Source of the DNA: Paludibacteraceae bacterium
Lineage (GTDB): Bacteria; Bacteroidota; Bacteroidia; Bacteroidales; Paludibacteraceae
DNA length: 64,000 nt
Direction: 5' to 3'
Assembly: GCA_024401555.1 (NCBI GenBank)
Contig: JAKSKV010000001.1
Span: 1-64,000 of the forward strand
How positions within the stretch are numbered: the first letter of the stretch is position 1; the number at the start of each line of letters is the position of its first letter. This document shows positions 20,041-24,735 of this stretch, in pieces. The notes under the pieces are model-generated. The model was not told the DNA's origin. It searched no databases and saw nothing but the letters and a program-made list of their open reading frames with translations. A program made the translations under genes and the position numbers.

Positions 20041-20943
20041 ATGAAAAAGATTGTAATGATATTTGCGGCGATGACCGCACCATTATGGGCGTTCTCCCAA
20101 GAGGAGGCGATGGATACGCCTCAATTGACCACAGATTCGTTGATGGTGGATGATGAGACAGCGGAGGGAGATCTCTCCTCCGATTCTCTGAATGTCGATT
20201 GGAACAGCGAGAAGTTTGTCTTCAACGACTCCATCCCTTGCGACTCCATGTACCATGCCATTTGGGATTCCGTCCGTGTCAATCCTTACCGTATCTCCAT
20301 CGACTCGGTGCCAGATTCCTTCTTGGTCGATTGTCGCGGCTTTTATCCGCCGAACATCAATGTTGTCACCTCCGAGTGTGGTGAGCGTTGGGGAAGATTC
20401 CATGCGGGAACTGATATGCGTTTGGCGATTGGCGACACGATTCGTGCCGCGTTTGACGGAAAGGTGCGCGTTACCCGTTCCACCATGCGGAAGAAGGGGT
20501 ATGGATATTTTGTGATGATCCGTCATTATAATGGTTTGGAAACCCTGTATGGCCATCTGTCTAAGGTTTTGACCAAGACCAACCAAGAGGTGAAGGCGGG
20601 CGATGTGATCGGATTGGGTGGAAATACGGGCCGTTCGACGGGACCTCACTTGCACTTTGAGTTCCGCTATTTAGGCAATCCAATCAATCCGCGTAAGATA
20701 TTGGATATCACCGATAGTACGATGGCTGTCAAGGCGGATACCTATTTGGTGGAGAAGAAGAGTTCGTTTAAGGAGTTCTATGACTTCTTGCATTCGCCGA
20801 TTAAATATTATAAGATTAAGCCTGGCGACAATTTGGGTAGGATCGCGAAGAAGTATCATACGACGGTTTCCCGTCTTTGCAAGTTGAATAAGATAAAGAG
20901 TACGACGATTTTGAGAGTTGGAAGAAGAATCAGGGTTTCGTAA
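20041..20943 (+). CDS. M23-family peptidoglycan endopeptidase with C-terminal LysM
   Basis: A 300-residue secreted protein with signal peptide ending near WAFSQEE. The LytM/M23 zinc site is complete: HAGTDMRL (HxxxD) and the HLHFEFRYL (HxH) motif; the domain covers about residues 110-230. The C-terminal LysM (residues about 257-300, YYKIKPGDNLGRIAKKY, TILRVGRRIRVS) binds glycan strands. It probably cleaves peptide cross-links in the periplasm during growth or division. It ends at a long terminator shared with the micropeptide genes on the other strand. Confidence 0.9.
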   Translation: MKKIVMIFAAMTAPLWAFSQEEAMDTPQLTTDSLMVDDETAEGDLSSDSLNVDWNSEKFVFNDSIPCDSMYHAIWDSVRVNPYRISIDSVPDSFLVDCRGFYPPNINVVTSECGERWGRFHAGTDMRLAIGDTIRAAFDGKVRVTRSTMRKKGYGYFVMIRHYNGLETLYGHLSKVLTKTNQEVKAGDVIGLGGNTGRSTGPHLHFEFRYLGNPINPRKILDITDSTMAVKADTYLVEKKSSFKEFYDFLHSPIKYYKIKPGDNLGRIAKKYHTTVSRLCKLNKIKSTTILRVGRRIRVS

Positions 20944-21022: not shown

Positions 21023-21048
21023 TTTTGATTGTCTGTCTGATCCATGAC

Positions 21049-21138
21049 TTACATCTTCTTTAGTGATTTTGACTCCATATAGATTCTTGTCGCTGTTGTT
21101 GCTACTATTGTTGCTGAAATAATGAAACCTGTTACCAT
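21049..21138 (-). CDS. Micropeptide 2 of a tandem paralogous pair (29 aa)
   Basis: The reading frame starts MVTGFIISATIVATTATRIY and ends KSLKKM before TAA. It shares the pattern M-V-x-G-x-I-I-S-x-T, then A-x-R-I-Y-M-E, with the 25-residue peptide encoded just upstream, so both are likely translated. A hydrophobic stretch (residues 3-16) followed by Arg suggests one short membrane helix with a charged C-terminal tail. The 5' flank TTTAAAACATTACGA before the start is also shared. Lacking a database, I do not recognise a family; see findings. Confidence 0.6.
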   Translation of the reverse strand: MVTGFIISATIVATTATRIYMESKSLKKM

Positions 21139-21186
21139 AGTCGTAATGTTTTAAAGTTAATAACTGATTTGTCTGTGATTTGTCGC

Positions 21187-21264
21187 TTAGTCCGCGAGCT
21201 CCATGTAAATTCTGGCTGCAACTGAAATTGTTACTGTGCCTGAAATAATTAATCCTAGTACCAT
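21187..21264 (-). CDS. Micropeptide 1 of a tandem paralogous pair (25 aa)
   Basis: The frame reads MVLGLIISGTVTISVAARIY and then MELAD before TAA. It aligns without gaps to the 29-residue peptide downstream through the RIYME motif. The start is preceded by TTTAAAACATTACGA-like sequence (ATTAAAACATTACGATT), conserved at the other copy, and by a promoter at 21315-21345 giving a leader of about 45 bases. No classical Shine-Dalgarno is seen, as usual for Bacteroidota. Likely a small membrane peptide; function unknown. Confidence 0.6.
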   Translation of the reverse strand: MVLGLIISGTVTISVAARIYMELAD

Positions 21265-21314
21265 AATCGTAATGTTTTAATGTTTTACTTCTCTTTTTGT
21301 CCTCATTGACAATG

Positions 21315-21345
21315 CAAATATATATACAATTTTCATAATGGCAAA
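21315..21345 (-). promoter_or_regulatory. Promoter of the micropeptide pair
   Basis: On the minus strand TTTG (21342-21345), exactly 19 bases, and TATATTTG (21315-21322) match the Bacteroidota promoter as well as the tRNA promoters do. It reads toward the two micropeptide frames. From 21346 to 21576 nothing else was recognised; that stretch is AT-rich. Confidence 0.7.
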
Positions 21346-21576
21346 TGTTTTGACCAAAAAATTTAAAATATTTTCTAAAAATAGTGGATGTAGTAGCAAA
21401 ATGTCAGAATAATAGGTTAAATACAAGCAAAATGACATATCTCAAATGATTATTCGCTATATATATTCTTTAAAAATGCATAAATATTGCATAAATTATG
21501 TATAATGTATGTTTGCGCGGAATGTGAGGCGAGTAGGGGTGTGATGGTCTCTCGTGAAAAATATTTCTCTTAAAAA

Positions 21577-21639: not shown

Positions 21640-21715
21640 GAGCTAGTAGCTCAGCAGGTAGAGCACATCCCTTTTAAGGATGGGGTCTTGGGTTCGAGCC
21701 CCAACTGGCTCACCA
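21640..21715 (+). tRNA. tRNA-Lys (UUU)
   Basis: Acceptor GAGCTAG/CTGGCTC, D stem GCTC/GAGC, anticodon stem CATCC/GGATG with loop CTTTTAA (anticodon TTT), T stem TTGGG/CCCAA, discriminator A and an encoded CCA. Confidence 0.95.
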
Positions 21716-21847: not shown

Positions 21848-23062
21848 ATGAATATGAAATACTTGATCATATTGGGCGATGGTATGGCCGATGAGCCTAT
21901 TGCCGCCCTCGGAAATAAGACCATTCTTCAAGCGGCCAACACCCCTACGATGGATTTGTTGGCAAGCAAGGGCCGTAACGGACTCTTGGCGACTGTTCCT
22001 GTCGGATTCCATCCGGGAAGTGAAATTGCTAACCTTACCGTTTTGGGTTATGATGTGAGGAAGGTTTTTGAAGGACGCGGTTCTTTGGAGGCGGCCAGCA
22101 TGGGGATCGATATCGAGCCAGGAGAGATGGCGATGCGTTGCAACATCATCTGTGTGCAGGATGGAAAGATTAAAAACCACTCTGCGGGCCACATCTCCAA
22201 CGAGGAGGCCTATCAACTCATTAATTACCTCAACGAAGAGTTGGGTGATGATAAGGTGCGATTCTTCCCTGGTATCTCCTATCGCCACTTGTTGAAGATT
22301 AGGGGCGGTAACAAGCATGTCTCCTGTACGCCACCGCACGATGTGCCTGGTACACCTACCAAGGATGTGATGGTGAAGGCGGATTGCCCGGAGGCGGAGC
22401 CCACCGCACAACTTTTGAATGATTTGATTCTCCGTAGTATGGAGATCCTCCCTAAGCATCCTGTGAACATCAAGCGCGTGGCCGAGGGTAAGGATCCTGC
22501 TAATAGTATTTGGCCATGGTCGGCAGGCTACAAGCCAGAGATGAAGACATTGATGGAGACCTACGGTTTGAAGAATGGCGCGGTGATTTCCGCTGTCGAT
22601 TTGATTCGTGGAATCGGTGCCTATGCGGGTTTGAAGTCCATCGAAGTGGAGGGTGCGACAGGATTGTATGATACCAATTACGAGGGCAAGACGCAGGCGA
22701 CCATTGACGCTTTGAAGGAGAACGATTTGGTTTATCTCCATATCGAGGCTTCTGATGAGGCTGGTCACGAGGGAGATGTCGATTTGAAGTTGAAGACTGT
22801 GGAATATTTGGAGAACCGTGTGGTGAAGCCTATTTATGAAGAGGTCTCCAAGTGGGATGAACCTGTGGCGATCGCTATTTTGCCGGATCATCCGACCCCT
22901 TGCCGGTTGAAGACACATATTTCGGCGCCTATTCCCTTCTTAATCTACTATCCAGGCATAGAGCCTGACAACGTCCAAAAGTATGATGAGGAGTCTGCAA
23001 AGGCAGGCGCTTATGGTGTTTTGGAAGGCGATGAGTTCATTAAGGCGTTGCTGGGAAGATAA
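21848..23062 (+). CDS. Cofactor-independent phosphoglycerate mutase, ApgM type (possible homoserine kinase)
   Basis: A 404-residue alkaline-phosphatase-superfamily protein: IILGDGMADEPI (metal-binding Asp), GFHPGSEIANLTVLGYD with the catalytic serine region, FFPGISYRHLL, HIEASDEAGHEGD and AILPDHPTP metal ligands. ApgM-type enzymes interconvert 3- and 2-phosphoglycerate. A Bacteroidales subgroup of this family has been proposed to act as homoserine kinase when encoded in the threonine operon; here no thrA or thrC is adjacent, so either role is open. The second ATG at 21854 is an equally good start. TATTTTTG at 21829-21836 may be its -7 element. Confidence 0.85.
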   Translation: MNMKYLIILGDGMADEPIAALGNKTILQAANTPTMDLLASKGRNGLLATVPVGFHPGSEIANLTVLGYDVRKVFEGRGSLEAASMGIDIEPGEMAMRCNIICVQDGKIKNHSAGHISNEEAYQLINYLNEELGDDKVRFFPGISYRHLLKIRGGNKHVSCTPPHDVPGTPTKDVMVKADCPEAEPTAQLLNDLILRSMEILPKHPVNIKRVAEGKDPANSIWPWSAGYKPEMKTLMETYGLKNGAVISAVDLIRGIGAYAGLKSIEVEGATGLYDTNYEGKTQATIDALKENDLVYLHIEASDEAGHEGDVDLKLKTVEYLENRVVKPIYEEVSKWDEPVAIAILPDHPTPCRLKTHISAPIPFLIYYPGIEPDNVQKYDEESAKAGAYGVLEGDEFIKALLGR

Positions 23063-24191: not shown

Positions 24192-24221
24192 TTTGTTCTC
24201 TCCTGAGGTGCATTACATTTG
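24192..24221 (+). promoter_or_regulatory. Promoter of the LRAT-like gene
   Basis: TTTG (24192-24195), an 18-base spacer and TACATTTG (24214-24221). A start site near 24228 rules out the upstream ATG at 24193 and supports 24253 as the start codon. Confidence 0.6.
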
Positions 24222-24252
24222 CAATGTAAATTCTAAAATCTACGATGTTGAT

Positions 24253-24735
24253 ATGGCACGTATCGAATTCCTTCCAGGTTCCGTTTTGCGGGCTTATCGC
24301 GGCCTCTATTTCCACTATGGCGTTTATGTCGGAGGAGGCAAGGTGGTCCATTTCTCTTCCAAGGGAAAGGGAGAAATGAATGCTGCCACCGCCGATATTA
24401 TCCTCACATCGTTTAAGGCTTTCTCCAAGGGGGATGTGGTAAGTTTGGACACGAAAGAGGAGGCGACTTTCCCACCGGAGGTGATTGTCCAAAGAGCGAT
24501 TTCCGCCATTGGTAGCAAGAGGGGAACTTATAACTTGGTCAGCAATAATTGCGAACACTTCGCGAACTGGTGCAGGTGCGGGAAACTCGTTTCTCATCAA
24601 AAGGAGACGGTGAACGAAGTGCTTGATCTGTTTTTGGGGGAATTCCCTGTCGGACGGGTGTTTAGGGATGTGATTCGTGAAGTCAGTTCTGTACAAGAGC
24701 GTAAGGCTCGATGGTTGTATGAGGGCGCGAGGTAG
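24253..24735 (+). CDS. LRAT-domain (lecithin retinol acyltransferase-like) protein
   Basis: A 160-residue protein starting MARIEFLPGSVLRAYRG. The LRAT/HRASLS core is clear: FHYGVYVGGGKVVHFSS with the first catalytic His, and NNCEHFANWCRCGK with the nucleophile Cys in the NCEHF motif. Bacterial LRAT proteins are thiol acyltransferases or hydrolases of uncertain substrate. No signal peptide is seen, so it is probably cytoplasmic. The gene has its own promoter and follows the YiiX-like gene by 164 bases; both share the permuted NlpC/P60 fold. Confidence 0.85.
   Translation: MARIEFLPGSVLRAYRGLYFHYGVYVGGGKVVHFSSKGKGEMNAATADIILTSFKAFSKGDVVSLDTKEEATFPPEVIVQRAISAIGSKRGTYNLVSNNCEHFANWCRCGKLVSHQKETVNEVLDLFLGEFPVGRVFRDVIREVSSVQERKARWLYEGAR

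Follow-up and report, generated by a model that had tools for sequence, protein, structure and literature searches.

Very small genes of an apparently undescribed family in Paludibacteraceae: putative membrane micropeptides followed by an 8-19 codon frame at the terminator

Background

KdpF, AcrZ, MgtS and CydX are one-segment membrane micropeptides of ~25-50 aa that regulate a partner. Genes of such size fall below the range in which annotation usually works, and mccA is a gene of 7 codons. The genes that we describe here resemble those of the four membrane micropeptides in length and in encoding a lone hydrophobic segment with a short charged tail, but they differ in several ways: a promoter and a terminator of their own bound the unit, copies occur in tandem, no neighbour is fixed, the mRNA also carries a nano-frame, and there is no meaningful match in Pfam, NCBIfam or PDB. 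This nano-frame is a tiny frame adjoining the terminator, as is mccA, the 7 codons of which are followed by a terminator in the account of PMC6495379; however, the nano-frame in our locus has 8 codons and another sequence, lies behind membrane frames, and has its stop codon on the stem itself. It also resembles an attenuator leader, such as the his leader treated in PMC4046918, in being a short frame ahead of an intrinsic terminator and, in its basic type, in having slow or rare codons, but it often has no gene to attenuate: in 23 of 46 units the neighbour downstream is oriented towards the unit. Tandem small hydrophobic peptides are shared with type I toxins such as Ibs, Ldr, ZorO and DinQ; unlike these (the literature on which includes PMC3919570, PMC3567139 and PMC8309996), the family has no conserved antisense promoter and occurs in all 16 genomes of its host genus.

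Results and discussion

Layout of the locus

The window is the whole stretch of DNA that we analysed, 64,000 nt of contig JAKSKV010000001.1 from a Paludibacteraceae gut bacterium. On its minus strand lies a compact unit consisting, in order, of a promoter, ORF1, ORF2, a nano-ORF and a terminator, with the following features in and around it.

21437-21427, minus strand: upstream repeat 1, TGTCATTTTGC; aligned with variation upstream of 15 strict-family units, less kept than repeat 2
21406-21396, minus strand: upstream repeat 2, TGACATTTTGC; aligned upstream of strict-family units, better kept than repeat 1
21345-21315, minus strand: promoter of the Bacteroidota primary sigma type (TTTG, 19 nt, TATATTTG), from alignment and consensus
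21264-21187, minus strand: ORF1, putative membrane micropeptide of 25 aa, MVLGLIISGTVTISVAARIYMELAD; profile match, pN/pS 0.31 against ORF1 of G008
21138-21049, minus strand: ORF2, putative membrane micropeptide of 29 aa with a basic tail, MVTGFIISATIVATTATRIYMESKSLKKM; profile match, pN/pS 0.12 against ORF3 of G008
21045-21019, minus strand: nano-ORF of 8 codons, MDQTDNQN; start 3 nt past the ORF2 stop, stop codon touching the terminator stem
21018-20986, minus strand: intrinsic terminator at the end of the unit, stem AAGCCTCAATATTCG-TAA-CGAACATTGAGGCTT, then a T run
20041-20943, plus strand: M23/LysM peptidase gene, convergent to the unit and ending at 20943
21640-21715, plus strand: tRNA-Lys gene, on the other flank of the unit
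21848-23062, plus strand: phosphoglycerate mutase gene, on the same flank beyond tRNA-Lys

The two flanking protein genes were recognized in a domain scan of five window neighbours, and an Rfam scan of the window returned three tRNAs and nothing else. The promoter follows the primary-sigma consensus given for Bacteroidota in PMC7366714, and a promoter-like site lies upstream of 48 of the 50 units described below when some variants of the -33 box are allowed. The sequence-only reading of this DNA had proposed two minus-strand frames of 25 and 29 codons between a promoter and a terminator, all of which are present, and had assigned to both peptides the patterns MVxGxIISxT and AxRIYME, which a gapless alignment of ORF1 and ORF2 confirms. 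Its picture of tandem paralogous genes with one promoter and one terminator stands for this locus and is incomplete in two respects: the tandem is one form of the unit, as 26 of the 50 units have a single membrane frame (21 have two and 3 have three), and the nano-frame at 21045-21019 on the minus strand had been missed.

Both ORF1 and ORF2 encode an N-terminal hydrophobic stretch of ~17 residues, a RIY juncture and a short charged tail, and the topology of the peptides is probably N-out/C-in. The family peptides, 23-32 aa long, follow a common plan in which a hydrophobic stretch near the start leads to K/R, then to V/I (A in one genus), and then to a short tail. As the best 15-residue Kyte-Doolittle mean in six family members is 1.75-2.73, they are probably one-segment membrane micropeptides, their location being predicted from hydropathy. 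In the units beside apgM and the M23 gene (the window and G008), the last copy has a basic tail, which is absent from the first copies. In units of a third genus (L105, L116 and L182-L188), a third membrane-like frame, whose tail is long and rich in Asn/Gln, separates the nano-frame from the family frames; an example is MGITLALLCVASAVKIAYSVNDCKKLNNNNNQNQHNRI in L105.

Distribution of the family

A DNA search of 61 genomes gave matches in 21 of them, some by chance. Using profile A1 (13 members), we found 18 copies in 13 of the 16 genomes of the host genus at E <1e-12, hence the ORF pair is not a chance occurrence; weaker matches in the wider family, with E up to 0.5, are mostly chance. Profile A2, made from a more distant set, matched in 20 of 300 genomes (E 0.02). 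At an E of 0.01 or below, the combined profile A3 (36 members) matched in 29 of 300 Paludibacteraceae genomes. These belong to 4 of 33 genera, namely the host genus, with all 16 of its genomes, and three others, so that the homologues with kept frames which had been expected in related genomes do exist. Profile A3 also gave an additional host locus, G000:C138:79499-79573. In the stretch spanning this locus, L142 (G000:C138:74500-84600), the further unit of the host genome encodes, on the minus strand, MTTVFFSIAACFVAKVAMEITELNK and then the nano-frame MRNRRFEHRRRQFVPRR at the terminator. In the order-wide search 1 of 393 genomes matched, namely the host, and in the class search 2 of 295, namely the host and an incomplete genome whose one match is weak and partial. 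The genomes searched are mostly in many contigs and the named ones are metagenome-assembled, with terminators and genes called mechanically; sources of the same-genus relatives include rumen, omasum, reticulum and horse faeces. For the anatomy of the units we used 47 fetched stretches and the window, leaving out G157:C40 at a contig end, which gave 50 units with 77 profile-passing membrane frames, a number that excludes the third frames of L182-L188.

Searching the 36 members against the Pfam, NCBIfam and PHROGs models gave scattered matches only, at E 0.025 or worse and each in one or two members; a PADLOC scan of the same members and a PDB chain search at E 1 gave no match, in keeping with the earlier statement that no named family with this pattern is known. 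One 30 aa member used as query against 50,697 phage records had no match at E 1, and 14 pattern matches in viral contigs included none confirmed at E 1e-3, both being weak tests with such short queries. No description of the family was found in the open text of PMC; it may lie unnamed in a catalogue of small proteins (PMC11364881). Since the relatives keep the same layout, the unit looks like a real gene family, and on sequence comparison the pair apparently belongs to an undescribed family of very small genes. The family is an addition to the conserved genes whose size approaches the minimum for encoding a protein.

Coding selection on the membrane and acidic nano-frames

The in-frame pN/pS is 0.23 for 12 distinct single-copy membrane frames of the host genus, 0.29 for 11 membrane frames of a second genus, and 0.21 for eight acidic nano-frames of the host genus (two 9-codon acidic nano-frames of the second genus being left out), versus 0.94-1.27 in the shifted frames of the same three sets (0.94 and 1.08 for the acidic nano-frames). 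The observed values were attained by 0 of 500, 0 of 500 and 9 of 500 column shuffles, respectively. Variable columns favour third positions in three sets (p 4e-4, 5e-4 and 0.009) and, with p 0.05, in a fourth set of six close membrane frames of basic units. These comparisons of aligned codons show that the membrane frames and the acidic nano-frames are under coding selection, a conclusion confined to these two classes; the five basic nano-frames have a pN/pS of 0.63, which 110 of 500 shuffles attained. A noncoding RNA with chance frames is ruled out by the frame-shift controls, and the Rfam scan yields only the tRNAs. If the nano-frame is a peptide gene, it would in our judgement be among the smallest genes with measurable protein selection.

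The pN/pS rises to 0.41 in the strict family when tandem copies are included, and is 0.53 for five tandem copies alone and 0.67 for ORF1 versus ORF2 of the window. Selection on the protein, which the first reading had seen in the two copies, is thus supported between species, by the values against G008 listed above, and not between copies. The codon pairs GGC/GCA and GTT/ACA that it had offered as a sign of such selection were misjudged: since they replace Gly by Ala and Val by Thr, the amino acid itself changes.

The nano-frame at the terminator

In 49 of the 50 units, a hydrophilic nano-frame of 8-19 codons lies behind the last membrane frame and ends at the terminator, its stop codon being -8 to +2 nt from the stem; L181 (G134) is the exception, and four units (L153, L155, L164 and L175) have an alternative start or frame for it. 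A separate terminator finder placed a nano-frame at 46 of 48 family sites versus 11 of 150 other terminator-like sites in the same DNA. Of the long frames, 65 have a terminator-like site no more than 120 nt away; the site is at -8 to +2 nt in 6, within 8 nt in 9, and at 17-31 nt in 35. In L166 the nano-frame is 81 nt past the membrane frame, compared with 11 nt in its relatives L147 and L149, and is still at the terminator.

All 49 nano-peptides are hydrophilic (GRAVY -0.58 to -2.8), with 17 acidic, 9 near neutral and 23 basic. Asn is the C-terminal residue of 15 of the 17 acidic ones, L145 and L156 ending otherwise. An acidic and a basic unit occur together in 15 of 20 genomes of two genera, and the nano-peptides of opposite charge from the two units found in most genus genomes are possibly partners of each other. 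We also considered that each nano-peptide might pair by charge with the tail of the membrane peptide from its unit, and dropped this by eye, as related tails accompany acidic and basic types.

The basic nano-frames favour rare CGA arginine codons. Counting one DNA form of each of 15 nano-peptides from two genera, CGA makes up 40 of 58 arginine codons (43 of 65 with the four nano-peptides from the remaining two genera), versus 323 of 3254 (~10%) in long frames, some of which may not be genes; its share is 8 of 105 within stretches rich in arginine, and 1 of 21 in membrane frames. The binomial p of 5e-27 overstates independence because the nano-peptides are related.

A proposed self-contained micro-operon and its alternatives

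We give about an even chance to the reading, drawn from sequence, that the unit is a self-contained micro-operon, perhaps one whose 3' end responds to translation, and encodes membrane regulatory micropeptides and a soluble nanopeptide. One housekeeping-type promoter would drive an mRNA of ~330 nt, a length taken from the positions of promoter and terminator, that would encode two one-segment membrane micropeptides and a soluble peptide of 8 residues. ORF1 and ORF2 would be made from tandem frames with a common initiation context, and the most likely role of the membrane peptides would be to serve an inner-membrane target as small subunits, either regulatory or accessory. The nano-frame would be translated after ORF2 through coupling or reinitiation to give the soluble peptide. 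Its translation would also put ribosomes onto the terminator stem, so that how much the unit produces may be tied to the translation of its own mRNA. The frames, the family, the selection and the terminator placement can be read from the DNA, whereas topology, abundance, regulatory role and effect on termination are what we infer; the regulatory or accessory membrane role is best read as a proposal from hydropathy, conservation and analogy. Of the roles named in the sequence-only reading (membrane regulator, toxin-like peptide or signal), the regulator stays the most likely.

When a stop codon stood 5 bp ahead of a terminator in E. coli, termination fell from ~90% to <10% in the experiment reported in PMC4824070, a result that may not carry over to Bacteroidota, and at mccA the ribosome is said, in the account of PMC6495379, to induce termination, with repeated translation. 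Since these two results oppose each other, the effect of the nano-frame on termination could go either way.

It is possible, although on the doubtful side, that the nano-frame is a cis-acting device only, whose translation gates the terminator or 3' end by means of slow CGA codons in the basic type and the stop codon on the stem in all types, the peptide being inert. The position of the stop codon is kept while the charge and length of the nano-peptides vary, and both the CGA excess over long frames and the strong ribosome stalling at CGA in a bacterial his-leader assay, as given in PMC4046918, would fit such a device; however, amino acids are conserved in the acidic type (pN/pS 0.21), and arginine is absent from the acidic nano-frames listed, one excepted. 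Moreover, 23 of 46 units, that of the window among them, face a convergent frame as the first one of at least 80 aa downstream, which leaves half without a neighbouring gene to control, and in the other 23 this frame is on the same strand; ordinary attenuation of a neighbour therefore cannot be the general role, and in the window no same-strand gene follows that could be so regulated. If it is a cis device, the nano-frame would exemplify translation gating of a terminator in Bacteroidota. We put forward only tentatively, as a rather doubtful reading, that the unit is a micro-operon of an unknown kind, in which tandem membrane micropeptides are joined to an 8-codon gene whose stop codon on the stem gates the end of the transcript, slowed by CGA codons in the basic type.

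A type I toxin, in which small hydrophobic peptides depolarise the membrane and are repressed by an antisense RNA, would account for tandem peptides with charged tails, which are of the kind found in Ibs and Ldr. Such a toxin in its classical form is unlikely, since a scan for antisense promoter-like sites of the TTTG/TAnnTTTG type found them in 4 of 50 units versus 1.9 expected, the same site in four genus genomes and none in the window unit, and since the family is present in 16 of 16 genus genomes. The phage records and viral contigs, weak tests as noted, gave no confirmed match, and a toxin would leave the nano-frame unexplained. Secreted leaderless bacteriocin-like or signal peptides are very unlikely: short tandem peptides and the Asn that ends 15 of 17 acidic nano-peptides (that of the window among them), as in the microcin C precursor described in PMC6495379, would suit them, but no immunity, export or modifying gene keeps its place beside the units, the MccB/ThiF domain is absent from the five window neighbours scanned, and L145 and L156 have no terminal Asn.

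Neighbours and upstream elements

No frame among the nearest three on either side is shared in the same place by two genera, and thus the unit seems to stand alone. Neighbour families F12 and F29 are each present in two genera, but on differing sides; a conserved neighbour as a functional clue was dropped, its position not being kept across genera. In L142, L146, L152, L155, L157 and L161, the basic unit has a divergent YtxH-like gene 256-311 bp upstream of it (one of the six was scanned, and it scores under the Pfam cut-off), and shared control of the two is possible. Elsewhere in the window, positions 24193-24735 (plus strand) encode an LRAT-domain protein (PF04970, E 8.9e-25) in this Bacteroidales genome.

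The common 5' flank claimed for the two copies proved to be family-wide, with AC[GA]A[CT]T before ATG in 43 of 77 family frames versus 0 of 51 window frames of at least 150 codons, not all of which are genes. Neither confined to the family nor a general start, the same context also precedes some other genes, for example a ferredoxin-like frame in L029. For the longer form TWACGAYTATG the host genome has 10 occurrences, the ORF pair accounting for two, compared with 9 for the reversed control, and of seven inspected among the eight other places, two start long frames. A generic initiation context was not supported by this, the family flank being absent from the 51 long window frames.

Repeats like TRTCWTTTTG, ~31 bp apart, lie upstream of the promoter (21437-21396 in the window, and in strict-family units) and outdo their surroundings in conservation, which suggests that the pair is perhaps a site for a regulator. 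As an exact degenerate pattern, the pair has 7 matches in 5 of the 16 genus genomes, 5 at family loci and 2 elsewhere in the host genome; in a regulon search of the 16 genomes, these two yielded no clear second target. A stem of 6 pairs (TGATTC..GAATCA, with variants such as TAATTC..GAATTA) lies where the mRNA is predicted to begin in 12 of the 16 non-acidic genus units, namely L142, L144, L148, L150, L152, L155, L159, L161, L163, L165, L167 and L169.
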